DNA of 44,539 nt. Source: a virus. The notes below the pieces were generated by a model, which did not search any database, had not been told where the DNA came from, and worked only from the letters and a program-made list of their open reading frames with translations. This document shows, one piece after another, positions 1,995 through 39,627 of this stretch. The stretch spans positions 1 to 44,539 of the IMG/VR virus record IMGVR_UViG_3300017917_002495; one strand, written 5' to 3'. The first letter of the stretch is position 1. Each line of letters starts with the position of its first letter. Made by a program: the position numbers and the translations under genes.

Positions 1995-2768
1995 TTAGGC
2001 AGAAGTTTTTTCGTATCCGTATGCATCTTTCATCAACTGAAGACTGCTTTCTAATTCAACAGTGTTCTTGCAGTTGATTTCGAAAAGATCCAAACGCATC
2101 TGAGCAGCGATGCTGAGTGCGTGTTGTTGCTTTTCGATGGTATCACATAACTGCATAAGTCTACGACGACCTAGTTGGCTATGGAATTTTTCATCTTTAG
2201 CAATCTTAGCATATGTTTCTGCGATAAAAGGATCTGTCACGGTCTTGGCCATCATAGCCCAGTTACGTGCAGCACGGCCTTCTGCTAGAAGTTGATAAAC
2301 ACCAAGAGCGATTTCGTCGTTCTGGCAGTCATACTTTTCTAATAGCTTTGCACCTTTGATATCTTTGTTCTTGTTGAGTTCGAACTCTACTGCTGCTTCT
2401 ACGTCAACAGGCTCACCGCCTAGATACTCTACTACACCTTTGACCATACGGAAGTGATTAGCTTCGTCTAGAGCTTGCTTGCTTAGAAGCTGTAGCTCTT
2501 TTGGATCCATGTCCACTGGTGCGTTAGCGATGGTATTGCAGATCTCGATAAGGTTCATTCTTTCGCAGACCATACGACCTTGGAAGTGCTTGGCCAATTG
2601 CTTCTTGTCAGAAACACTCTTGTAGTAGGCTTCTACTTGTGCTTCTGAAGCTTGAAACAAAGCTTCGCTGTCTGCTTCGATCTTTGACACAAATTCTTTA
2701 ACATCTGTGCCGAATTCGGAACCATCGGATACCATTTTTTCTAATTCTGCTGTATCATATTTGATCAT
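1995..2768 (-). CDS. Ferritin-like di-iron protein, copy 2 (257 aa)
   Basis: All-helical protein with the residues of a di-iron centre: Glu in NLIEIC, DEANHF (ExxH), a Glu in LAEGRAARNW, and KDEKFH (ExxH). It aligns over its length with the upstream gene 2786-3535, with which it shares the spacing of these motifs, so the pair is a tandem duplication. The chosen ATG (2768) follows AGAGGAACC; an earlier in-frame ATG lies within the neighbour. Members of this superfamily do oxidation chemistry or iron handling. Which one applies here cannot be told. Confidence 0.7.
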   Translation of the reverse strand: MIKYDTAELEKMVSDGSEFGTDVKEFVSKIEADSEALFQASEAQVEAYYKSVSDKKQLAKHFQGRMVCERMNLIEICNTIANAPVDMDPKELQLLSKQALDEANHFRMVKGVVEYLGGEPVDVEAAVEFELNKNKDIKGAKLLEKYDCQNDEIALGVYQLLAEGRAARNWAMMAKTVTDPFIAETYAKIAKDEKFHSQLGRRRLMQLCDTIEKQQHALSIAAQMRLDLFEINCKNTVELESSLQLMKDAYGYEKTSA

Positions 2769-2785
2769 AATAATGGTTCCTCTTT

Positions 2786-3535
2786 TTAGTAAATTTCTTT
2801 TAGTGCTACGGTTTGGTGCTTGCCAGCGATCCAATCTTCACCGTAGTACTCTTGGATCATCTTACGACTTTCTTCAATAGCGATATTACCACCGCAATTG
2901 ATATCGTAAAGATCCTTTCTCATCTTCTTAGCTAGTTCACGAGCATACTGCTGCTTTTCTTCTGTGTCTAGCATTTTTGCTAGGCTAGTCTTACCTAACT
3001 TAGCATGGAATCTTTCGTCCGCTGCGATCTTAGCATATGTTGTGCTGAGTACTGGATCAGACAAAGAATCTGCCATTACTTGCCAGTTACAGCTGGCATG
3101 TCCTTCGACGATAGCTTGGTATAATGCAAGAGCGATTGGATCATTCTCTACATTATATCTTTCTGCTACGCGAGCGCCTTTGGTTTTTAGATCTGCTAGT
3201 TCTGTTGGAACTGCTTGAGCAAGATCAACTTCGTAACCACTTACATAAGGAACGATGTCGTAAACCATACGATAATGATTGGCTTCGTCTAACATCTGCT
3301 TGGCCAATGAAACAAGTTCTTTTGGATCCTTGTCTAATGGTGCTGCTGCGATGGCCTTGGCGATTTCAACCATGTTCATACGCTCGTTGACCATTCTACG
3401 CACGAAGTTATTGTATAGTTTTTCCTTGCTGGGGTTACTATCATAGAAAGCCTTGATCTGAATTTGGCTTGCTTTGTAAAGAACTTGGTTTTCTTCCCAT
3501 AGTTCATCTACGAATTGTTCACCGGTCATCTGCAT
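2786..3535 (-). CDS. Ferritin-like di-iron protein, copy 1 (249 aa)
   Basis: Paralogue of 1995-2768. The same metal-ligand pattern is present: Glu in NMVEIA, DEANHY, Glu in IVEGHASCNW, and ADERFH. Starts at ATG after TTAGGAGAAA and ends 17 bases before the second copy, so both should be made from one transcript and may form a heteromer. Conservation of the ligands in both copies argues that both bind metal. Not typical ferritin: the chain is longer and has no cage-forming signature that I recognise. Confidence 0.7.
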   Translation of the reverse strand: MQMTGEQFVDELWEENQVLYKASQIQIKAFYDSNPSKEKLYNNFVRRMVNERMNMVEIAKAIAAAPLDKDPKELVSLAKQMLDEANHYRMVYDIVPYVSGYEVDLAQAVPTELADLKTKGARVAERYNVENDPIALALYQAIVEGHASCNWQVMADSLSDPVLSTTYAKIAADERFHAKLGKTSLAKMLDTEEKQQYARELAKKMRKDLYDINCGGNIAIEESRKMIQEYYGEDWIAGKHQTVALKEIY

Positions 3536-16911: not shown

Positions 16912-18792
16912 TTATTGTCCTTGTGTTACAGTGATTGCTGAGCACGTGACTTGTGCGCAGTTATGTGTTATTGAATAAAATTGCTGTGTAGATCCGCTCT
17001 GTGATGTGGTAATTGAAGTAGCGCCGCCTGTAAGGGTAATGTTGGCCATGTGTGCAGCAGATCCTTGCTGTAAGACATTTACAGTTTTATTTCCACCACT
17101 GAGATTTATTTCAGCGTAGTGATTGCCGTTATCTTTCTGTTGTACAGTTACAGAATTAGAAGTGTCGTTGACAGTGGCTAAAATTCCTTTAGTGCCTCCT
17201 GTGCTCTGCTGTGTTAGATTAACTGTGTTTGAGTTGCCTATGACATCTAATTCTATATAATTTGTAGCGGTAGCACTGGTGCTGGTCTGAGTAGTGTTGG
17301 TAGTATTATAATGTCCGCTGACATAAATTTCACTGTAATTATTTTTTGTTCCGCTTTGTATTACCGTAGCAGAATTATTGTTACCTATCTGTGTTATGCT
17401 AACCACAGTATCTTGTAAAGGTCTGACACTGAATGCTGTTACTCTATTAGTAAATTGTGCATTAGCATTGAAAGGAGCATTAGAGCCGCCGCAACAGAAA
17501 CTTCCTGGATTTGATACACTACCACCACCTGTGTCTGTAGATGTTGTTGGATTATTAGCATCGTAGATGAAAGTTATTTCTGCTATCTGCATTGAGTTAC
17601 AATCTAAACCACACCCTTCACCTGCTTTAGTAGTTGGAAAGAAAATATAATAATATACATAGGCATTGCTGTTCGCTACTGTTATTTCTGAACTGGTTGT
17701 GAATCTGTTGTCGCTGAGATTAAGAGCACCTTCGCTAATCAAAGTCCAAGTGGTACCGTTGTTACTGCCGTAGAGTTTATAACTGGTAGGATCTCTGCCC
17801 GGAAAATCATTAGCAGTGGTTAGTGTAAATCCTTTGACCACTCTGCCAGAACTCAATTTAATAGTAACACCTGCATTGTACTTGTCAAAGTTTAGATACT
17901 TGGTATTAGGATTTCCGTCAAAGGCATTTTCAGCGCCTTCACCTGCAGGACTGTTAAGGCTGGTTGGATATATGTTGGTGATATTAACAGTTGCGCTGGT
18001 AGTTGTGATATTTTGATAACTAGGTGTAGGAGCACCAGCAGGACTCGATGTAGTCATTGTTGAATTATAACCACCAGGAGTACCAGATGTTGTTCCACCA
18101 TTAGGATCTGGTCCGCCACCATTCTGGTTAGCAACAAGACCCGTTGTACTGGTTCCTGGTGTGCCTGAACTGTTGGCAATACAGGGATTACTGCCGCCCC
18201 ACGCTCCTTGGCAAGCACCTAGTGCAGGGCTGACAGTCCAACCTTGTGCGGCTATGTTATTGTAAGGTCCAAATTCTGGGTTATAGGCCATATTGGCTCC
18301 ACCATTAAACCTAAACGTAGGAGCACGGTACCAAGGACCGTAGTCACCTGCCCAATAACTTCCATCAATGCCATAAAAACTTATTTTAGCATATGCTACA
18401 GTTGAGGCCTGCGCTGCTGATAATGTTGCACTAATGGACAATGTTGTCCAAGGTACAGCAGGATCGATACAGGGATTTCCGCATACCGCATTTGGGTTTG
18501 GAAGATTGCCTGAATAATTTGTACTAGTCTGTGTTACCAGTGTGCCGGTGCTGGTATAAAATTGTATTCTTACGTTGGCAGTATCACTTTGCCCTGCGCG
18601 GCCACCGCCGTTGTGTGCTAGAACGCTGAGTTCAAAAGTGCCACCCTGTTGCATCGTGCTGTTAAACACAACGTTCTGACTGATAGTAGTAGTAACATAA
18701 GCAGTGGCGATCGAGTTATACATGTCCTGTGCATAACTAGTCGACATGGCTGTGATGATATAAACTAAAAGGATTCGTAAAATATGTTTCAT
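16912..18792 (-). CDS. Secreted discoidin-like protein with curlin-type repeats (626 aa)
   Basis: Signal peptide, then a Gly/Ser/Thr-rich N-terminal part, an F5/8 type C (discoidin)-like segment (about 285-400, with AFDGNPNTKYLNFD and SYKLYGSNNGTTW), and a C-terminal run of curlin-like repeats (SITQIGNNNSATVIQSG and relatives, about 455-620). Six or so Cys are in the N-terminal two thirds. ATG at 18792 overlaps the FecR gene's TGA. It looks like a binding protein carried on an amyloid-type strand, exported through the CsgG pore of the same operon. Function inferred. Confidence 0.75.
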   Translation of the reverse strand: MKHILRILLVYIITAMSTSYAQDMYNSIATAYVTTTISQNVVFNSTMQQGGTFELSVLAHNGGGRAGQSDTANVRIQFYTSTGTLVTQTSTNYSGNLPNPNAVCGNPCIDPAVPWTTLSISATLSAAQASTVAYAKISFYGIDGSYWAGDYGPWYRAPTFRFNGGANMAYNPEFGPYNNIAAQGWTVSPALGACQGAWGGSNPCIANSSGTPGTSTTGLVANQNGGGPDPNGGTTSGTPGGYNSTMTTSSPAGAPTPSYQNITTTSATVNITNIYPTSLNSPAGEGAENAFDGNPNTKYLNFDKYNAGVTIKLSSGRVVKGFTLTTANDFPGRDPTSYKLYGSNNGTTWTLISEGALNLSDNRFTTSSEITVANSNAYVYYYIFFPTTKAGEGCGLDCNSMQIAEITFIYDANNPTTSTDTGGGSVSNPGSFCCGGSNAPFNANAQFTNRVTAFSVRPLQDTVVSITQIGNNNSATVIQSGTKNNYSEIYVSGHYNTTNTTQTSTSATATNYIELDVIGNSNTVNLTQQSTGGTKGILATVNDTSNSVTVQQKDNGNHYAEINLSGGNKTVNVLQQGSAAHMANITLTGGATSITTSQSGSTQQFYSITHNCAQVTCSAITVTQGQ

Positions 18793-19865
18793 CGATTCCA
18801 TATCCTTACAGTTACCTTATTTGAACCGTCACCTACAACTTTAGTTTCCACATCGTTGCTGTTGATAGAAATGTTATAGGTAGTGTTGTCCATCTTCTCG
18901 CCGCTTTTGATTACTATAGTGTTACCTCGATCATCATCTTTTCTGTAATACCAATTTAAACCTTTTTCGTTACCGCAGTCATTGAAGGGATAACAGGGAT
19001 TTGATCGAGGATCTCCTAGTACCCCACCAGCAGCGCCATTTATACCGTATAATTGTGTTTGTTCATTTTCTCTTGATTGTTTTTCTGATAAGGTTTTTTC
19101 ATTTCCTTCATGAACTTTTTTGCGTTCATCATCAGTATACTTAGATTTATCTCGGTCACGATCTTTCTTATCATCTCTATCATTTTCAACCCTAGCGATG
19201 TTTTCAGGTTTTTTAAGATTGCTGTCATTGCTCACGGCTACAGGATCTACCTTAACTGGAGGCAACGGCGGTTGTTGAGAATCTGTGACATAGGTGGCTG
19301 TATAGGCCTGATTGAGACTGACCAGTCCTGCGTCTGTGATTACATCTATAGCACCGACTACACAGTTGCCGGTAATTTGAAAATTTATTAATTTCGTAGG
19401 ATCGTCGCAGCTAGGTAATAGAACTACTAAACTACGACCCACTTCGTCTACAGTCATAGCAAAATCAGTACCTCTCACAGCAATAGTAGCTGTAGGGGTT
19501 TTTATATTGACATTTTGTGGATTATTTTTTGCTACTTGTCCGGATGCGTATCGAACTGTGCCTAAGGCAACTTTCATTCCTAATTTTCCAGCATCTGATT
19601 GTTTTGGATCATAGACAAAGTCATCTATGATTAGTTTTGAATTTTCTGTGATTTTTACTTTGGTATTATCTTGGAAAGTGATTCCTATATTGGTTTTAGA
19701 GCCAACGTTTACAGTATCCATAGATTCGATGCCAGTACTGTTCTTTCCTTGAATTGTGGTTTTTTCTCTTTTGATTTCTACAGCGGTACCTTGAATGTCG
19801 CTGATGCTACCTATTGCAGCAGCGACATCCAAAGATATGAACATTAAAAACCATAGATATTTCAT
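18789..19865 (-). CDS. Secreted FecR-domain protein (358 aa)
   Basis: Signal peptide (about residues 1-17), then a FecR domain (about 30-190) with the typical TFQDNTKVKITENSKLIID and TPTATIAVRGTDF motifs. After residue 195 the chain is charged and low-complexity (ENDRDDKKDRDRDKSKYTDDE), ending in a small beta region. In bacteria such domains sit in envelope signalling or surface proteins. Here it lies between two curlin-repeat genes with overlapping codons on both sides, so it is probably part of the exported structure. Confidence 0.8.
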   Translation of the reverse strand: MKYLWFLMFISLDVAAAIGSISDIQGTAVEIKREKTTIQGKNSTGIESMDTVNVGSKTNIGITFQDNTKVKITENSKLIIDDFVYDPKQSDAGKLGMKVALGTVRYASGQVAKNNPQNVNIKTPTATIAVRGTDFAMTVDEVGRSLVVLLPSCDDPTKLINFQITGNCVVGAIDVITDAGLVSLNQAYTATYVTDSQQPPLPPVKVDPVAVSNDSNLKKPENIARVENDRDDKKDRDRDKSKYTDDERKKVHEGNEKTLSEKQSRENEQTQLYGINGAAGGVLGDPRSNPCYPFNDCGNEKGLNWYYRKDDDRGNTIVIKSGEKMDNTTYNISINSNDVETKVVGDGSNKVTVRIWNR

Positions 19866-20545
19866 CAGTTCCCTGTTGATACGGTTACATTATTGCTGTT
19901 GCCGTTAGTGGTAATATTAACAGTGGTGTTAACGGTACCACTTTGTGTGACTGTATGAGAATTACTTGTTCCTGTTACTGATGCAGTTAAATGATGTCCA
20001 GCACCTGCACTGGCACCAGTCATTGAACTAGTAAATGTATTACTATCTCCTAATATAGTTATAGCACTGGTTGAATTGCTTGTGAGTATAGTCTGTGTTA
20101 CAGTATTGCTATCACCAGTGATACTTAATGTATTAGTAATGTTTGACCCTTTGATAGTGCTTGTCACGGTATTCAAGTCGCCAGTAATAGACATCGTACT
20201 GTTCACATTTGTGCAACCTGTTGTTCCGTCGCCACAAGTAAAAGTAATCTGATTAGTGTCACCTACAACGGTTTTACTAATAGTATTACTGCTACCTACT
20301 ACGGTATAGTCAATTGTATTTGCATCACCTGTTTGTGATGTTGTAAGGATATTTGTAGATCCTGTTATCTTGCTCTGTTGATTTAAACCACTGTTACCTA
20401 CTCTATTATTTGCTCCTACCTGTGTGATTGATATCACATTGGTAGAACCAACTTGTTCGATGTATACCCCATTATTAGCGTATGCACCAGATCCTGCAAA
20501 TATCGCAGCCATTATAGTGGCCATCTTATAATAATTTTTTACCAT
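19865..20545 (-). CDS. Curlin-repeat protein, CsgA/CsgB-like (226 aa)
   Basis: After a signal peptide ending in AYA, the protein consists of about eight 20-22 residue repeats of the curlin type, for example VISITQVGANNRVG and NTVTQTILTSNSTSAITILG, rich in Asn, Thr, Ser and Gly. Curlin repeats stack into a beta-helix amyloid. ATG at 20545 follows CGGAGAAAGTAAAA. It lies 48 bases after csgG, so it is the natural export substrate of that pore. Gln/Asn ladder is less regular than in E. coli CsgA. Confidence 0.8.
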   Translation of the reverse strand: MVKNYYKMATIMAAIFAGSGAYANNGVYIEQVGSTNVISITQVGANNRVGNSGLNQQSKITGSTNILTTSQTGDANTIDYTVVGSSNTISKTVVGDTNQITFTCGDGTTGCTNVNSTMSITGDLNTVTSTIKGSNITNTLSITGDSNTVTQTILTSNSTSAITILGDSNTFTSSMTGASAGAGHHLTASVTGTSNSHTVTQSGTVNTTVNITTNGNSNNVTVSTGN

Positions 20546-20593
20546 TTTTACTTTCTCCGTGGTGACGAAATGCACCGTTTAAAACTAATTCTT

Positions 20594-21580
20594 TCATTCT
20601 CCCTTTTTTACTTCTTCTTTTCCGGCCTCACTTTCTGTTTTATTGCCTTCATTGCCTGTTCCGACATTGGACTGCTGTGGTAAGGCTGATGACTGAGTTT
20701 TGGTGGTGGCGGATTCTTTATCGGGCTGTGTCGGAACCAACTCATCTTTCTTCTCCTCCTTCTTTAATATAGGATCGGGTCTAGACGTCTGTGTGGGTTT
20801 TTCTTCTTTATAGCTCCAGTGTCCTTTTCTGGCGCCTTCTTTAATCATTTCTATAACCGCAGCATGGATCGCCAATTGAACAGCCTTGTTCATTGATTCG
20901 TTGGTGGCTGAACCAGTTTCTAGTTCTAGAGATGCTGTGCCAGCATCGTAGAATCTAAGGACTCCTAGTTTATCCATAAAACTAATTACAGTTTTGCTGG
21001 TATTGACTGCAACTAACACTTCTCCTGTGGCTACAGAAACTGCTCGTAAACTTATAGTTACTTCGTCTTGTTGATATTGGGTGGTTGCTCCTATGCCTAG
21101 AATTCTAGCACCGGAACCTCCGCTCATTGTATTTGAATCATAACCTATGATACCGCCTTCAAGAATCATTCCAGCAAACATCATAGGAGGAAGTTGTTGT
21201 GCGTCCTTGCCCTGATATAGTTCTCGCATTTGACGTATAAGTTGACGTTCCTTGACTATGTTATCTAGGCCGCCGCGTTCGAGAACTTTGAACCATTTTC
21301 CATTGCCCACGTCCTGTAGGCTCTTTACTAGGTATGCGTCTGCGCCCTGTGTCACGGCAGAACTAAGGCTGGCAATAACCTGACTAGACTTTCTTTGTCC
21401 AGTCATATCTCGGAAATTATAAACAGCCACAGTAATCGCACCAGAGGCTGGTTCGGCTAATTGTGGTTCTTTTTTTAGTTTAGGTGCGGTAACTACCGGA
21501 TCGTCAAAATTTCTTACATAGTTCCCGACGGTTCCACATCCTGCAAGTGCTATAGCCAATGCTATAGGGGTTAATTTCAT
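20594..21580 (-). CDS. csgG: CsgG-family outer-membrane secretion pore (328 aa)
   Basis: Lipoprotein signal (ALAIALAGC) followed by the CsgG domain: VAVYNFRDMTGQRK, GKWFKVLERGGLDNIVKERQLIR, MILEGGIIGYDSN, GIGATTQYQQDEVTISLR and VNTSKTVISF. Bacterial CsgG makes a nine-subunit lipoprotein channel that secretes curlins (type VIII secretion). The core is complete; a Lys/Glu-rich tail of about 70 residues is extra. ATG at 21580 overlaps the CsgF stop. In a phage it could secrete the neighbouring curlin-type proteins or act as a large envelope pore in lysis. Confidence 0.9.
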   Translation of the reverse strand: MKLTPIALAIALAGCGTVGNYVRNFDDPVVTAPKLKKEPQLAEPASGAITVAVYNFRDMTGQRKSSQVIASLSSAVTQGADAYLVKSLQDVGNGKWFKVLERGGLDNIVKERQLIRQMRELYQGKDAQQLPPMMFAGMILEGGIIGYDSNTMSGGSGARILGIGATTQYQQDEVTISLRAVSVATGEVLVAVNTSKTVISFMDKLGVLRFYDAGTASLELETGSATNESMNKAVQLAIHAAVIEMIKEGARKGHWSYKEEKPTQTSRPDPILKKEEKKDELVPTQPDKESATTKTQSSALPQQSNVGTGNEGNKTESEAGKEEVKKGE

Positions 21581-22038
21581 TAAGGTGCTAGCCATCCGAA
21601 GTCTCCAATTGGTACAGTCATTGTGGTAATATTACCGTTGGCATCCCTAATGGTAATTTCTATTAAACTACCTGTTTTTGTATAGGTAATTGTTCCACCA
21701 TTGAATGCAAAGGTTCCGGACGCTTGTGTTCCTTGTCCTTCGAATAATTTTTCTGTGATTTGTCTTGCTAGTTCGTTGTAGACACGACTTTCTAAGTTCG
21801 CCACAAATTTAGCCATAGTGGTGTTCTTAGCGTCGTTTTCAGCTTTCAATTCGTCTGCTTTTTTTTCAGCAGCGATAGCAAGTTTACGACTCAGTTCTTG
21901 ACTGTAGATCGTTAATGCGTGACTTGAATATCCTATGCCAGAAAAAGCCGGACTATTGAAATTATGGACCATTTCTGCAGCATATACTGGTGCGATAGTA
22001 GTCGCAACGATGCTGCATAATGCAATAATTTTTCTCAT
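21580..22038 (-). CDS. csgF: CsgF-like curli assembly factor (152 aa)
   Basis: Signal peptide (cut after APVYA), then MVHNFNSPAFSGIGYSSHAL, which matches the CsgF N-terminus that plugs into CsgG (phenylalanine/asparagine-rich, NPxFGG-like). The C-terminal part is a short helix plus beta sheet, about the same size as E. coli CsgF (138 aa). ATG follows GGGAGCGAATTACA; a TTAAATA motif lies upstream. Adjacent csgG makes the assignment firm. Confidence 0.8.
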   Translation of the reverse strand: MRKIIALCSIVATTIAPVYAAEMVHNFNSPAFSGIGYSSHALTIYSQELSRKLAIAAEKKADELKAENDAKNTTMAKFVANLESRVYNELARQITEKLFEGQGTQASGTFAFNGGTITYTKTGSLIEITIRDANGNITTMTVPIGDFGWLAP

Positions 22039-23236: not shown

Positions 23237-23244
23237 TATTTATC
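23237..23244 (-). promoter_or_regulatory. T4-type late promoter octamer
   Basis: GATAAATA on the minus strand, 5 bases before the ATG at 23231. No ribosome site lies between, so the transcript may be leaderless. Confidence 0.6.
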
Positions 23245-23926
23245 GCAGTTCGGGAAACAAACAATCCTGTATAAAAACTCTAACATCGTCTTCGTTTAAT
23301 CCTAGACTAGCCATTACTTTTGGAGTATGCGGGTTCTGTTTCTGATTTTGTGCATAATAATTCTGTTCGAAACTAGCATCATCTACAGTATTGTTTGTTT
23401 CGCCCACAGTTTCTATGTAATGATTTACCAGTATATGAGCTAGGCTTTCGATCTGAGACAATTCACTTTCATCACTAACATTGCCCGCAGCTATCATGTG
23501 CGGACTAAAAATACGCTGCGCCCAATCAGGCAATTCACGCTTTTTAATCCACTCATATCTGCTGACTTCTTCAGCAAAATATTCAATCATAGGATGGCTA
23601 CGATCCTTTGTAGGACTGTAATCAATAAAGCAGCCTGTGATTTTGTTTTTGCCTGCTATAACATCAAAACCAAAAATGGGTGCCGGGTTATGGGTATGCG
23701 GAAAAACACAGCAGTGCATCATCCAGAGGCCCTTTGAGGATCGGGCATCGACTACATCGATGTGAGCTCTACGATAATTACCACTGGTCCAGACACGATT
23801 TACCCAACCCGGCTGATTGAAACGATCCATGCCTGGTTCTTGGGTTTCTATTCCTGTTTCGGAAAACCTTTCTTCTAATAGAGCTTGTATTCCTATTAGA
23901 GTATTCCAGACCTTACTGTCCGTCAT
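23240..23926 (-). CDS. Ferredoxin-dependent bilin reductase, PcyX/PebS-like (228 aa)
   Basis: Shows the family's core: VVDARSSKGLWMMHCCVFPH, NPAPIFGFDVIAGKNKITG, FIDYSP (central catalytic Asp) and LPDWAQRIFSPHMIAAG. These enzymes reduce biliverdin with electrons from ferredoxin. Viral members (PebS in cyanophages, PcyX in phages of presumed heterotrophs) make phycoerythrobilin. It overlaps the heme oxygenase gene by about 14 bases, so both should be made together: heme to biliverdin to a reduced bilin. No bilin-binding protein is seen in the window. Confidence 0.85.
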   Translation of the reverse strand: MTDSKVWNTLIGIQALLEERFSETGIETQEPGMDRFNQPGWVNRVWTSGNYRRAHIDVVDARSSKGLWMMHCCVFPHTHNPAPIFGFDVIAGKNKITGCFIDYSPTKDRSHPMIEYFAEEVSRYEWIKKRELPDWAQRIFSPHMIAAGNVSDESELSQIESLAHILVNHYIETVGETNNTVDDASFEQNYYAQNQKQNPHTPKVMASLGLNEDDVRVFIQDCLFPELR

Positions 23927-24470
23927 AGATTTTCACAACTTCCATCATTTCGTCAAAAAATCTAGCAGCGAAATCAAAACAGACCTTAGCTTCGTCGGCC
24001 ATACTATCATTCAACTTAGATCTAATAGCTTCCTTGATTTTATCAGGAGAGTCTCCGAACTGATAGTATTTTCCTGAACCAGGTACACGTTTAGCGATCA
24101 TCTGTCCGCCACTTAGATCTCCCATGTGTCTTACATAGATATGAGCCATTAATTTTTCAGGATCGTTTTTAATTTCAAGAATATATTTGATATAATCATT
24201 GACCACAGGACACATATAGGGAACTTCATCTGAATCTCCCCAGAGTTCTGTGAAATCTTCTAGGATAGCTGGAGCTCTTCGCACCTCCGGTAGATCGTTG
24301 AACAATCTGTGCGGCATGGCACAGACTTCCAATATTTCATACATGGGGTGTTGATTTTTAAGATAGGTAGCGTAAATTTTTGGATTTACATTTCCTGAAA
24401 ACAATACCTTAACGAAAGGTCTTGTCTCTGCTCTTTTGTGTTGTTCGTGGGTGAGTTCTTTTAGATTCAT
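23913..24470 (-). CDS. Heme oxygenase (185 aa)
   Basis: The proximal His lies in LTHEQHKRAE near the N-terminus and the distal helix is YVRHMGDLSGGQMIAKR, both diagnostic of biliverdin-forming heme oxygenase. It opens the heme ring and releases biliverdin, CO and iron. Start: ATG at 24470, 8 bases after an AGTAAATA late octamer; a GTG at 24491 overlapping the upstream stop is the alternative. Paired with the bilin reductase downstream. Confidence 0.9.
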   Translation of the reverse strand: MNLKELTHEQHKRAETRPFVKVLFSGNVNPKIYATYLKNQHPMYEILEVCAMPHRLFNDLPEVRRAPAILEDFTELWGDSDEVPYMCPVVNDYIKYILEIKNDPEKLMAHIYVRHMGDLSGGQMIAKRVPGSGKYYQFGDSPDKIKEAIRSKLNDSMADEAKVCFDFAARFFDEMMEVVKIYDGQ

Positions 24471-24478
24471 AGTGAAGT

Positions 24479-24486
24479 TATTTACT
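24479..24486 (-). promoter_or_regulatory. T4-type late promoter octamer
   Basis: AGTAAATA on the minus strand, 8 bases before the heme oxygenase ATG, with no ribosome site between. Confidence 0.5.
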
Positions 24487-24487
24487 T

Positions 24488-24748
24488 TCACTGTAGTCTT
24501 AGCAGAAAAAATAAGAAATCTTTTTCATTGTCTAGTTTAAGGAAATAGTCTTCGGAACCGAATTTTTCATACTGCCATTTTTCTCCCATAGGTCCTAGAC
24601 TTTGTTCGAAAAATATTCGAACAGTTTTTTTACCAAATTTGCCAAAGGAGAGTCGATTCGGACGCTTGTCACGCAAATGGATCCAGAACCCGAATCTTTT
24701 AGCTCCTGTTTGTTGATGTTTTACTAGTCTAACATCATCAAAATTCAT
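24488..24748 (-). CDS. Small basic phage protein (86 aa)
   Basis: Rich in Phe, Lys and Arg, ending FLFFLLRLQ, a distant echo of the F-x-L-K-W array at 6.6-10.7 kb. No known domain. ATGA-coupled to clpS; the late octamer of the heme oxygenase gene overlaps its end. Confidence 0.65.
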   Translation of the reverse strand: MNFDDVRLVKHQQTGAKRFGFWIHLRDKRPNRLSFGKFGKKTVRIFFEQSLGPMGEKWQYEKFGSEDYFLKLDNEKDFLFFLLRLQ

Positions 24749-25595: not shown

Positions 25596-27494
25596 TTAGT
25601 CTTTTTTCTCCGTAAAGGTAGCATCGACTACATTGTCATCGTTTGGCGAAGCTTGGGATTGGGCAGTTGTTGCCTGCTCTTTAACTTGCCTTTTTTCCAA
25701 CAATATTTTCATTGCCGGATAAACTTTTTCAAGTTCTGATTTGATCTTATCAGTGTCATCACTTTTTGCTGCTTCTCGGACAGCAGCAATAGCAGATTCA
25801 ATTTCAGACTTTTCAGTTTCGGTGAGATCGTCTTTGAATTCTTCCATGTCGCGAGTAACTTCGTGAATGGTTGATTCTGCTTGATTCTTTGCTTCAATAA
25901 GTTCTCTAGACTTCTTATCTGCCTCTGCATTGGCTTCTGCATCTCTGATCATCTGTTCTATTTGTTCTTTGCTTAGACCGGAATCAGATTTGATTGTGAT
26001 TTTGTTTTCTTTGCCAGTGCCCTTGTCTTTGGCACTGATGTGCATGATACCGTTGGCATCGATATCAAAAGTAACTTCAATCTGAGGTTGTCCTCTACGT
26101 GCTGGCGCAATACCTTCTAAATTGAATTCGCCAAGCATTTTGTTATGCTGGCATAATTCACGCTCTCCCTGAAAGACCTTGATAGTCACAGCAGGTTGAT
26201 TGTCTTCTGCTGTGGAAAAAGTCTGAGTACCCTTGGTAGGAATGGTTGTGTTTTTCTGGATGATCTTAGCCATAACTCCGCCAAGCGTTTCAATACCTAA
26301 GCTCAACGGTGTAACATCTAAGAGTAAAACGTCTTTGCGATCACCACCTAGAACAGCACCTTGAATAGCTGCACCAACTGCCACAGCTTCGTCGGGGTTG
26401 ACATCTTTGCGAGGTGCTTTACCAAACAACTTTTCTACCTCTTCCTGTACCTTAGGCATACGTGTTTGACCGCCTACAAGGATGACTTCGTCGATGTCAG
26501 CAGGTGTTACTCCTGCATCCTGCATGGCAGTTCGACACGGTGCCAAAGATCTATTGATTAGATCTTCAACTAGGCTTTCTAGTTTGCTACGTGTAATCTT
26601 AACAACCAAATGTTTAGGACCACTAGCATCTGCTGTGATGTAGGGTAGGTTAACTTCTGTTTGAGAACTATTAGAAAGTTCAATCTTAGCTTTTTCAGCC
26701 GCATCCTTTAGACGCTGTAATGCCAACATGTCTTTGGTCAAATCAACACCTTGATCTTTTTTGAACTCATCTACTAGATAGTCCATGATGCGTTGGTCAA
26801 AGTCTTCACCGCCTAGGAATGTATCACCATTGGTTGATAATACTTCAATTTGTTTGTCGCCGTCGATGTTGGCGATTTCAATAATACTTACGTCAAATGT
26901 GCCGCCGCCGAGATCGTACACTGCTACTTTACGATCCTTGTTATCTTTCTTATCCACACCATAGGCCAAGGCCGCTGCTGTGGGTTCATTGATAATACGT
27001 AGAACTTCTAAACCGGCGATCTGACCAGCATCCTTGGTCGCCTGACGCTGCGAGTCATTGAAGTACGCCGGCACCGTGATCACGGCTTCGGTGACTTCTT
27101 CACCGAGATAATCTTCCGCAGTCTTTTTCATCTTGCGAAGAACTTCTGCCGAAATCTGTGGGGGTGCTAATTCTTTGTTCTGTGCCCTAACCCATGCATC
27201 TCCGTTTTTGCTTTCGAAAATTTCATAAGGCATAAGATCGAGATCTTTTTGCACAGCCTGTTCTTTAAACTTGCGTCCAATTAGACGCTTACTTGCATAA
27301 ATTGTATTTTTTGGATTAGTTACTGCCTGACGTTTCGCACTGGCACCAACTAAAATTTCATCGTTGGCGTAGGCAACGATACTAGGTGTGGTACGAGCAC
27401 CTTCAGAATTTTCAATAACTTTGGAAGTTCCATTTTCGACGATAGCCACGCAAGAGTTCGTGGTGCCGAGGTCAATACCGATGATCTTAGACAT
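25596..27494 (-). CDS. dnaK: DnaK (Hsp70) chaperone (632 aa)
   Basis: Full length compared with E. coli DnaK (638 aa). Begins [18 protein letters not shown] (ATPase phosphate loop), has [11 protein letters not shown] and [13 protein letters not shown], the hydrophobic linker [19 protein letters not shown], the substrate-binding domain and the end NVVDATF. It folds proteins by ATP-driven binding, normally with DnaJ and GrpE; neither is in this window, so host partners would be used. Ribosome site AAGGAG. Full-length DnaK is uncommon in phages. Co-directional with hsp20 and clpS. Confidence 0.95.
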
Positions 27495-34781: not shown

Positions 34782-34810
34782 ATTATAAAATTATTGTATG
34801 TAACTGTCAA
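34782..34810 (-). promoter_or_regulatory. Perfect consensus sigma70 early promoter
   Basis: TTGACA (34805-34810), 17 bases, TATAAT (34782-34787) on the minus strand. It sits right behind the pqqA terminator and serves the SGNH gene. Confidence 0.9.
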
Positions 34811-34836
34811 GAAAAAACCCGCCGAAGCGGGTCTTT
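34811..34836 (-). terminator. Rho-independent terminator after pqqA
   Basis: GACCCGCTTCGGCGGGT hairpin followed by six T on the minus strand. Confidence 0.9.
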
Positions 34837-34856: not shown

Positions 34857-34928
34857 TTATCGATTCATGATATACATAGTGATCTCAAAACCGTAGCGCA
34901 TTTCGGTTGCTTGAGGCTTGGTCCACAT
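34857..34928 (-). CDS. pqqA: PqqA, precursor peptide of pyrroloquinoline quinone (23 aa)
   Basis: A 23-residue ORF with a strong ribosome site (AAGGAG, 6 bases before ATG). It matches Klebsiella PqqA (as I remember it) at about 12 of 23 positions without gaps: Met1, Trp2, Lys4, Pro5, Arg11, Gly13, Glu15, Thr17, Tyr19, Ile20, Asn22, Arg23. Glu15 and Tyr19 are the residues that PqqE cross-links and that become PQQ. No pqqB-E gene is in the window, so host enzymes would be needed. It has its own promoter region and terminator, so it is a dedicated transcript. Confidence 0.85.
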   Translation of the reverse strand: MWTKPQATEMRYGFEITMYIMNR

Positions 34929-34955
34929 ATTGCTTCTCCTTGTAAATTGAATAAG

Positions 34956-34975
34956 CATACTATTGCATTAGTATG
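34956..34975 (-). promoter_or_regulatory. Inverted repeat in the pqqA leader
   Basis: CATACTA and TAGTATG (34956-34962, 34969-34975) form a perfect 7-bp palindrome with a 6-base centre, about 28 bases before the pqqA ATG. It could be an operator or an mRNA hairpin. A TATAAT lies just upstream (about 34985) in AT-rich sequence; the rest of the gap up to 35041 shows no gene. Confidence 0.5.
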
Positions 34976-35041
34976 TATCATTATTATAAGTTAAAAACTT
35001 CAAGAAAGCATAGTGAAATTCATGAAAATAGACTCGTGATA

Positions 35042-35548
35042 TCAGCTATTCAATACCTTAGCAACACTATTCATTACTGCGGCAATACGACCGATGTCAC
35101 GAAGTTGTTCTACTGTGTAGCCTTCCTTCTTGAGCGTGTCGTAGTGTGCCTTAACACAGAAGTGACACTTGCCCACAATGCTTGCGGCCAAACTAAATGC
35201 TTCAAAGTTTGCCTTGGTAGTTCCACCGTGGCTTGCAATAGCGTTCATTCTAAGTTGTGCTGGCAAGCCCTTTAGTTGCTCGTCATCGGCCATTTCAACA
35301 TATGGATACCAAACGTTGTTCTGTGCCATAATGCTGGCGGCAGTCATTGCAGCATCTGCGTGTACAGGTGCGTCTGCTAACATAACTGCCAACACTTTAC
35401 CATTGCCAGTTGCGGCCAGTGCGGCTACAGCACAACCGTAGGCAACATCTCGGTCCAATGTGCTACGTTCTAATACAGCATCTAGATTTAGTTTTGTGTC
35501 TTTAGCGTACTCTGAAAGTGCGCCTTTGACTGTTTCAATAAAGCTCAT
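35042..35548 (-). CDS. ahpD: AhpD-like alkylhydroperoxidase (168 aa)
   Basis: Helical carboxymuconolactone decarboxylase fold with the redox centre SIVGKCHFCVKAH (Cys128, Cys131, His135). In mycobacteria AhpD passes electrons from lipoyl proteins to AhpC. The gene is in an operon with an AhpC of the matching type, so the pair should reduce peroxides. ATGA-coupled to the aldolase gene. Confidence 0.85.
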   Translation of the reverse strand: MSFIETVKGALSEYAKDTKLNLDAVLERSTLDRDVAYGCAVAALAATGNGKVLAVMLADAPVHADAAMTAASIMAQNNVWYPYVEMADDEQLKGLPAQLRMNAIASHGGTTKANFEAFSLAASIVGKCHFCVKAHYDTLKKEGYTVEQLRDIGRIAAVMNSVAKVLNS

Positions 35549-38328: not shown

Positions 38329-38358
38329 GACAATACTTATTCTCTGTATATAATATTC

Positions 38359-38385
38359 AAAAAAAAGGCTACCGAAGTAGCCTTT
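38359..38385 (-). terminator. Rho-independent terminator after the tmRNA
   Basis: AAAGGCTACTTCGGTAGCCTTT hairpin with a UUCG loop followed by eight T on the minus strand. Confidence 0.9.
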
Positions 38386-38394
38386 ACTATTTTT

Positions 38395-38712
38395 GGTTAC
38401 AAGGTATAGTTACCCCGGACTTGCAGTTTCTTAGGCTGCTAGTGCAACACGACCGCCTACTGTGTTACCAGTGAAGCTTAGTGCTGCAAAGTCAAATGAA
38501 TCGTCGTTTGCGATTACTTTTTTTGCGTCTTCGGCCGGGAATCCCCAACCCTACGGTTTCTGCCTTACCGTGCTGTCCACTTGTTTACTCTTTGCCCTGT
38601 CGAAACCTAATTCATCCCCACCTAAATATACAAACATACACTTAGGTGGAGATGCCGGGGTTCGAACCCGGGTCCAGAACACTTTTCTATCCGCTTCATA
38701 CAGCAATAACTT
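38395..38712 (-). ncRNA. ssrA: Circularly permuted (two-piece) tmRNA
   Basis: The acceptor half comes first: a T arm with CCGGG-TTCGAAC-CCCGG, then CATCTCC-A-CC ending at 38645. A 25-base spacer (38620-38644) follows, then the coding half from 38619 with GGGGATGAATTAGGTTTCGAC. GGGGATG pairs with CATCTCC and gives the G3-U70 pair used for alanine charging. The resume codon GCA (38511) follows GTAATC; the tag starts ANDDSFDFAALSF, ends GGRVALAA, has 26 residues and stops at TAA (38431-38433). ACAGC and GCTGT in the two halves can pair. Permuted tmRNAs occur in alphaproteobacteria, some cyanobacteria and some betaproteobacteria. The outer ends are approximate. Confidence 0.93.
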
Positions 38713-38714
38713 AC

Positions 38715-38743
38715 AGTATATATTTATTGTGACAGATTGTCAA
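38715..38743 (-). promoter_or_regulatory. tmRNA promoter, early type with embedded late octamer
   Basis: TTGACA (38738-38743), 17 bases, TATACT (38715-38720) on the minus strand; the spacer contains AATAAATA (38721-38728). The -35 box overlaps the stop of the Ntn hydrolase gene. Confidence 0.8.
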
Positions 38744-39627
38744 TCTATTTGATGTGATAGTTTGTGATCAAAATGTGGATCATTATCCAAATTTTTGTCT
38801 TTGAGATTCATATAAAGTATTCGGTTACTAAGAATTTCAACCCAGGTCTGTTGATCCTGTTTATTCAATTCCCAAAAATTAAATTTCATATGACTTTGAA
38901 CTGGTCTAACATACATGGTCTTTTCTGCAGGGATCAGCATTATCTGGCTAGTCGTGCGCATTTTTTTGTTTTCTGTTGTGGTACGTAGGGCATTCATCTG
39001 AGGATTATTGGTATAGTCTATGGTTAACCCGTCAAGTATATCCTCGGGATCTTCTGCTTGACTAGTAACTATCTCAGCGATGAGTTTTCGACTTTCTGAG
39101 CTATATCGACTCAGCGTTTCTCTTTTATTTTCCGGATCTTTTTGATATCCGGCCCAAGGAAGAAGAACTCCGTGGTTGGTTCTTACCACATGTTGATCTT
39201 TAGGAATTATCTTAACCTTGTATTGATAATTTCCATTATTTTTAGCAGATTCTATTAGAATCATAGTTTCTTTGTCAAATACCAAGGTATTGCCTGTGAG
39301 CCCGTCATCTATGAGGCTCATGGCCGCGGCCTTGACATTTGGAAACTGTAGAGCCTTTTTAATTCGTTTTCCATCTCTAGAAGGTGTTCTAGTACGCTTC
39401 TCGATCTCTTTTTCGTCGTCAAGGACCATTAGGCTGGCTCCGAGTATGCCTACCCCGGCAGAATTCATCCCTTCACAATATTGTGTGATATCGTCCCAGA
39501 AATACAATATCTCTACGCCCTTGGCGTAGGTTTTCTTGAATGAAATCTCGGGGATGTAATTCCTGTCGCGATTTTTAACTGCGACCCAGCCGTAATCTTT
39601 AAAATATTTTCCAATAACAATACACAT
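38740..39627 (-). CDS. Ntn-type C-N hydrolase (295 aa)
   Basis: The second residue is Cys (MCIVIGKYF), which would become the N-terminal nucleophile after Met removal. KNRDRNY, GMNSAGVGI and RTNHGVLL match the linear amide hydrolase/acyltransferase (choloylglycine hydrolase or C45) pattern. It should cleave an amide or peptide bond of unknown identity. ATG at 39627 is 5 bases behind an AATAAATA late octamer and has no ribosome site. Confidence 0.75.
   Translation of the reverse strand: MCIVIGKYFKDYGWVAVKNRDRNYIPEISFKKTYAKGVEILYFWDDITQYCEGMNSAGVGILGASLMVLDDEKEIEKRTRTPSRDGKRIKKALQFPNVKAAAMSLIDDGLTGNTLVFDKETMILIESAKNNGNYQYKVKIIPKDQHVVRTNHGVLLPWAGYQKDPENKRETLSRYSSESRKLIAEIVTSQAEDPEDILDGLTIDYTNNPQMNALRTTTENKKMRTTSQIMLIPAEKTMYVRPVQSHMKFNFWELNKQDQQTWVEILSNRILYMNLKDKNLDNDPHFDHKLSHQID

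Follow-up and report, generated by a model that had tools for sequence, protein, structure and literature searches.

A stand-alone pqqA gene with a host-type operator recurs in phages of methylotrophs

The stretch of viral DNA analysed here (the window; 44,539 nucleotides, positions 1 to 44,539 of IMG/VR record IMGVR_UViG_3300017917_002495) contains a complete gene for PqqA, the precursor peptide of PQQ. Judged from its sequence, this is a genuine PqqA of the Methylophilaceae type, and in itself an ordinary one; it is the setting that is notable, as the gene stands alone, recurs in methylophages, is largely unannotated and is tied to a host-type operator. It is probable that a phage of a PQQ-making methylotroph supplies extra PqqA in this way, under host PQQ control, which would sustain methanol oxidation. 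The features of the pqqA locus are as follows.

35042..35548, minus strand: AhpD-like carboxymuconolactone decarboxylase-family protein, the upstream neighbour of pqqA
35010..35026, minus strand: PQQ-box-like operator TTCATGAATTTCACTAT, which departs from YTMATGRTTWTMHNKAK at one position and is a diverged version of the palindromic box CTMATGA-TTT-TCATKAG
34983..34988, minus strand: -10-like element TATAAT, the probable pqqA promoter, its position conserved in relatives
34956..34975, minus strand: 5' leader hairpin CATACT-AATGCAAT-AGTATG, directly 3' of the -10-like element
34936..34940, minus strand: ribosome-binding site AGGAG (AAGGAGAA), preceding pqqA
34857..34928, minus strand: pqqA coding sequence of 23 codons (ATG 34926-34928, stop 34857-34859), product MWTKPQATEMRYGFEITMYIMNR
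34812..34836, minus strand: intrinsic terminator 3' of pqqA, with a UUCG loop and six U

In the ORF listing of the window, the coding sequence is enclosed in frame by a larger ORF of 33 codons, and inspection of the sequence places AAGGAG 8-12 nt 5' of the inner ATG, in agreement with the ribosome site proposed in the preliminary description. The peptide scores 36.1 bits against PF08042 (Pfam PqqA, cut-off 21.1) and 33.9 bits against TIGR02107 (NCBIfam PqqA, cut-off 20). When the whole 44,539-base record is searched, pqqA is the sole match to PF08042, and this profile matches 0 of 14 control genomes. The PQQ-forming Glu and Tyr are present in the GFEITMY segment, with three residues between them. 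When compared with Methylophilaceae-type bacterial PqqA, 18 of the 23 residues are identical, which goes beyond the match at about half of the positions, Glu and Tyr included, that had been noted initially. The phage gene shares its length, its Glu-x3-Tyr core and the ATEMR..GFE..TMY motif with Methylophilaceae PqqA (PF08042/TIGR02107), including dispersed stand-alone copies, as well as the box upstream and, for many of the host copies, the terminator downstream; unlike these, the window gene lies in a phage genome without PqqB or PqqE, and its operator is partly diverged.

Similar peptides are found in cultured Methylophilales phages and in many viral contigs when phage genomes and viromes are searched for short PqqA ORFs; their absence, which the preliminary description had named as a refutation, is thus not observed. 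By tblastn, 12 of 50,697 phage records have a PqqA match, namely nine Methylophilales/Methylophilaceae phage records, one Manatee Spring podovirus and two Acinetobacter contigs. The nine cultured records represent six distinct phages, which are Venkman, Melnitz (four variants), MEP301, MEP401, MEP402 and P19250A, in a tally without the other Methylophilales phage taxa MEP431-434, HIM624-A, phiMB624-A and Venkman EXVC038S. The Acinetobacter 'phage' matches (H11, H12) have been set aside, since each is a complete pqqABCDE locus and the contigs look bacterial. All seven phage records tested besides the window score above the Pfam PqqA cut-off. For the IMG/VR records, DNA patterns have been used to find pqqA: the GFE[VI]TMY pattern gives at least 120 stretches, every one listed reading as a PqqA ORF, and a second pattern, without the Glu/Tyr, gives at least 26 further complete peptides, all those listed having E-x3-Y, a spacing that is also kept in isolate phage PqqA. 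After merging identical genes, at least 153 distinct viral pqqA genes are obtained. In seven viral records, among which are contigs as long as 191 and 356 kb, pqqA occurs together with a terminase-like match, although this family model also matches 11 of the 14 control genomes and therefore is alone no proof of phage. The pqqA neighbourhoods form 26 groups if two shared proteins are required and 4 if one suffices; pqqA recurs in phages with different genomic surroundings.

The gene is annotated in none of the six records inspected (Venkman, Melnitz-1, MEP301, P19250A, MEP401 and MEP402): in five of these methylophage records there is no gene annotated at pqqA, and in Melnitz-1 there is a hypothetical gene on the opposite strand. 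An opposite-strand hypothetical gene is also annotated at pqqA of the Manatee Spring podovirus, and in the remaining three Melnitz records a 'hypothetical protein' is listed under the PqqA match. Viral pqqA has probably escaped notice, since genes of 23 codons are passed over by gene callers.

In the window the peroxide-defence genes ahpC and ahpD adjoin pqqA, and the AhpD-like gene has been used as an anchor for relatives with and without pqqA. AhpD relatives, 88-96% identical, are found on phage contigs of up to 353 kb. A good PqqA match lies within about 3 kb in 15 of 80 AhpD loci, one of them truncated, and a whole-record search finds pqqA in 15 of 50 selected records, a set that includes two picked for pqqA and three via the SGNH neighbour. 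Since a minority of the ahpD-related phage contigs has pqqA, the gene is variable and dispensable in this lineage. Its codons are nevertheless under strong purifying selection in the window lineage, with a dN/dS of about 0.09 for nine distinct sequences near ahpD. As is expected of an auxiliary metabolic gene, pqqA is of host type, occurs in bona fide phage genomes and is maintained by purifying selection.

The signals around the gene are also conserved. A ribosome site is present in 145 of 152 viral pqqA genes, compared with 65 of 728 random positions, and a terminator in 70 of 150, compared with 12 of 728 (both for the genes among the matches listed). The terminator of the window, ACCCGC-UUCG-GCGGGU followed by a U run, has a folding energy of -19.1 kcal/mol (z = -4.4), so that it is indeed the strong terminator it had been taken for. 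Within the window lineage, alignment of the leaders shows a conserved block, the -10-like TATAAT, the hairpin and the ribosome site. The leader palindrome noted initially is unremarkable in the window when considering its folding energy alone (z = -0.48), but relatives keep it in two forms, ACATACT..AGTATGT and AAGTACT..AGTACTT, which differ by the exchange of two base pairs. Among 158 phage leaders, 47 have a stem of at least seven pairs, compared with 12 in shuffles; a pair-count score for the hairpin has not been used, MAFFT having misaligned short-loop hairpins. Across 3.8 Mb of phage sequence, a figure that counts both strands, the combination of -10 element and hairpin is almost exclusive to pqqA leaders, and the hairpin is absent from all bacterial pqqA leaders compared.

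The proposal that pqqA is its own transcription unit holds in part. The clear terminator closes the unit, and the -10-like TATAAT, the hairpin and the upstream box favour a promoter of its own, whereas a simple promoter scan of the window finds no standard -35 element or standard promoter ahead of pqqA. Furthermore, the terminator scan, which also missed the clear pqqA terminator, finds none between ahpD and pqqA, and therefore read-through from ahpC-ahpD is possible. Just past the pqqA terminator, a perfect sigma-70 consensus, TTGACA-17-TATAAT, is seen at 34782-34810 on the minus strand, preceding a GDSL/SGNH-like hydrolase gene.

Ahead of the phage pqqA genes there is a palindromic box of 17 bases, CTMATGA-TTT-TCATKAG, one form of which is the motif seen about 65-115 nt ahead of the ATG. 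Among the leaders in the matches listed, it is exact in 47 of 149 viral pqqA leaders and within two mismatches in 109 of 149, whereas random stretches have it at 0.2% (exact) and 1.5% (within two mismatches), and the sequences before other phage genes (n=1,989) at 0 and 1.6%, respectively. The pattern is derived from pqqA leaders, so that their matching is partly by construction; this does not apply to its low frequency in the rest of the genomes. In the window, the box is the single site with at most one mismatch, and since 0.9 such sites are expected by chance per whole window, its weight comes from its position and from the relatives.

The same palindrome is found in the hosts. In 15 Methylophilaceae-type genomes there are 48 exact matches to YTMATGRTTWTMHNKAK, compared with 8 for a reversed control pattern, and 33 of these 48 lie 72-158 nt upstream of pqqA. 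Among the remaining boxes inspected, one is ahead of pqqB, one lies between xoxF-like and xoxJ-like genes and two are ahead of tldD-like genes, these gene names being a reading of the sequences; one box (G008:C33:94520) is about 2.3 kb from pqqE. We lean slightly towards a Methylophilaceae PQQ regulon, in which a putative regulator acts at CTMATGA-TTT-TCATKAG before the pqqA copies, pqqB and possibly xoxF/tldD genes, and in which pqqA is paired with the operator across different phage lineages, so that the host PQQ signal would drive the phage-supplied precursor. The box would then be a candidate binding site of an activator. At L440, L444, L431 and L432, the host box is adjacent to a gene whose product is a small exported protein that has a conserved ECRTEY motif.

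The peptide type points to Methylophilaceae, and the host of the window phage is most likely a PQQ-making methylotroph of this family, in line with the methylotroph proposed in the preliminary description. Among 18 methylotroph-type genomes, chosen for Methylophilaceae-like PqqA, each has 1-10 scattered pqqA copies, and 15 have PqqE above cut-off. Most of these genomes are named Methylophilaceae (Methylophilus, Methylotenera, Methylobacillus and Methylovorus), some having broader names only, and at least one (L232, G016) is an unspecific gammaproteobacterium. Multiple pqqA copies combined with single other pqq genes (pqqBCDE) are a Methylophilaceae trait, with 3-12 copies in one survey (PMC4109929), and expression differs among separate pqqA copies (PMC9851590). 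The identity of the phage-encoded DnaK has also been considered as a marker of the host family.

25596-27494, minus strand: full-length DnaK with about 70-74% identity to its betaproteobacterial counterparts; Hsp20-like and ClpS-like genes are nearby

This DnaK is 71-74% identical to that of Burkholderiales-type genomes and 69-72% to that of Methylophilaceae-type genomes, which does not decide between the two. As it is slightly closer to the Burkholderiales type, it is mainly the 23-residue peptide and the operator that support the assignment of the host family.

Neither PqqB nor PqqC has a match in the window record, consistent with the claim that the precursor is the only part of the pathway encoded by the phage; the PqqC search, which gives no match in the viral records either, was made without a positive control. 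PqqE is above cut-off in 0 of 50 pqqA-positive viral records, and PqqB is found in 0 of 40, the window and seven phage genomes included. One other pair of window genes has been considered as PqqC and rejected, its sole match being to PaaA_PaaC, below cut-off.

1995-3535, minus strand: two tandem related ferritin-like proteins, with weak PaaA_PaaC similarity

It is probable, then, that the phage infects a PQQ-making methylotroph, presumably one of the Methylophilaceae, and brings in an extra, complete pqqA. PqqA would be the substrate of the pathway, and PqqB-E the reusable enzymes that the host already has; as one PqqA is consumed per PQQ in the known pathway, extra precursor would be the natural thing to add. 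The added PqqA may keep PQQ, and with it the methanol (and related) dehydrogenases, running during phage replication. Because the phage pqqA promoter region has the Methylophilaceae palindromic operator, the host PQQ regulator would switch the phage gene on, together with the host pathway. Expression of phage pqqA, processing of its product by host PqqE, a rise in PQQ and a benefit for the phage are each predicted from sequence data. A PQQ alcohol dehydrogenase is found in 1 of 50 pqqA-positive viral records (the window being outside that search): the 72 kb contig IMGVR_UViG_3300025120_009955 (L062) combines pqqA with a PQQ-dependent alcohol dehydrogenase that scores above cut-off. This low count, the dispensability of pqqA in the lineage, the diverged box of the window and the affinity of its DnaK count against the preferred explanation.

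Other explanations of the same data are less probable. The adjoining ahpC and ahpD, and the finding that the E. coli importer PqqU is closed by PQQ, which blocks a phage using this importer (PMC12124388), would fit a phage PqqA that raises PQQ mainly for antioxidant protection, or for an export that blocks rival phages using the PQQ importer as receptor (superinfection exclusion). This is unlikely when considering that most relatives have ahpC-ahpD without pqqA and that other phages place pqqA among different neighbours; we also know of no methylophage that uses PqqU. Slightly less probable again is a passenger gene, hopping into phages from multi-copy hosts without benefit: the many dispersed host copies and the patchy presence within the ahpD lineage agree with such a history, but the dN/dS of about 0.09 and the ribosome site in 145 of 152 of the listed genes do not, nor does the presence of pqqA, in differing neighbourhoods, in all cultured Methylophilales phages that surfaced.

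The conserved operator, at high copy during replication, could also titrate a regulator, and a decoy has therefore been considered, in which host PQQ metabolism would be upset because PqqD/PqqE or the host regulator are titrated by the peptide, or by the operators that multiply with the phage DNA. We give this a somewhat lower probability than the passenger gene, as strong purifying selection has preserved Glu, Tyr and the remainder of the host sequence in the peptide, and the gene has its ribosome site and terminator, whereas a decoy need not be a good substrate and operator titration requires no ORF. A chance ORF or bacterial contamination might be suspected from the shortness of the ORF and from IMG/VR contigs of just 4-6 kb, but it is highly improbable, given the curated cut-offs passed, the 0 of 14 control genomes matched and the pqqA genes on contigs with a terminase-like match and in isolate genomes, the isolates already contradicting it. 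A supply of extra PqqA under host control is the reading that we prefer.

Viral PqqA has been reported earlier. In passages of a 2020 Lake Baikal study, PqqA and methanol dehydrogenase are described for viral population VP_266, assigned to Methylophilaceae (PMC7678222), which is similar to the present case in its virus-borne PqqA, its assignment to a Methylophilaceae host and the proposed support of methanol dehydrogenase. It differs in having a viral methanol dehydrogenase alongside PqqA, which 49 of the 50 pqqA-positive records (searched apart from the window) do not have, and those passages do not discuss breadth, operator or cultured methylophages. A 2026 sediment study has pqqA among the viral genes listed (PMC13188868). 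There is no mention of pqq in the main texts of the MEP301 paper (PMC8024684) and of the OM43 phage lineage paper (PMC10580990), and in the Melnitz paper PQQ appears solely as an addition to the medium (PMC9004378). Among open-access main texts, none has been found that describes a palindrome at methylotroph pqqA genes; when considering the texts searched, the breadth of viral pqqA and the shared operator appear to be new. Like the mazG, phoH and hsp20 of Melnitz (PMC9004378), pqqA is a host-type metabolic gene kept by lytic phages, but it encodes a consumable precursor peptide and not an enzyme or regulator. It is widespread in phages of methylotrophs active in methanol turnover, in the sea and in lakes, and, owing to the shared operator, a PQQ regulon in Methylophilaceae and its exploitation by phages can be tested directly in phage-host pairs that are in culture.

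Three other regions of the window, all on the minus strand, may be mentioned. At 16912-21595, curli/CsgG-type-looking proteins lie beside large repetitive proteins, with PHROG matches of unknown function. At 23240-24491, a heme oxygenase adjoins a ferredoxin-oxidoreductase-like protein, possibly as a bilin-making pair, and at 38340-38757 the phage has a permuted tmRNA gene of the betaproteobacterial type.
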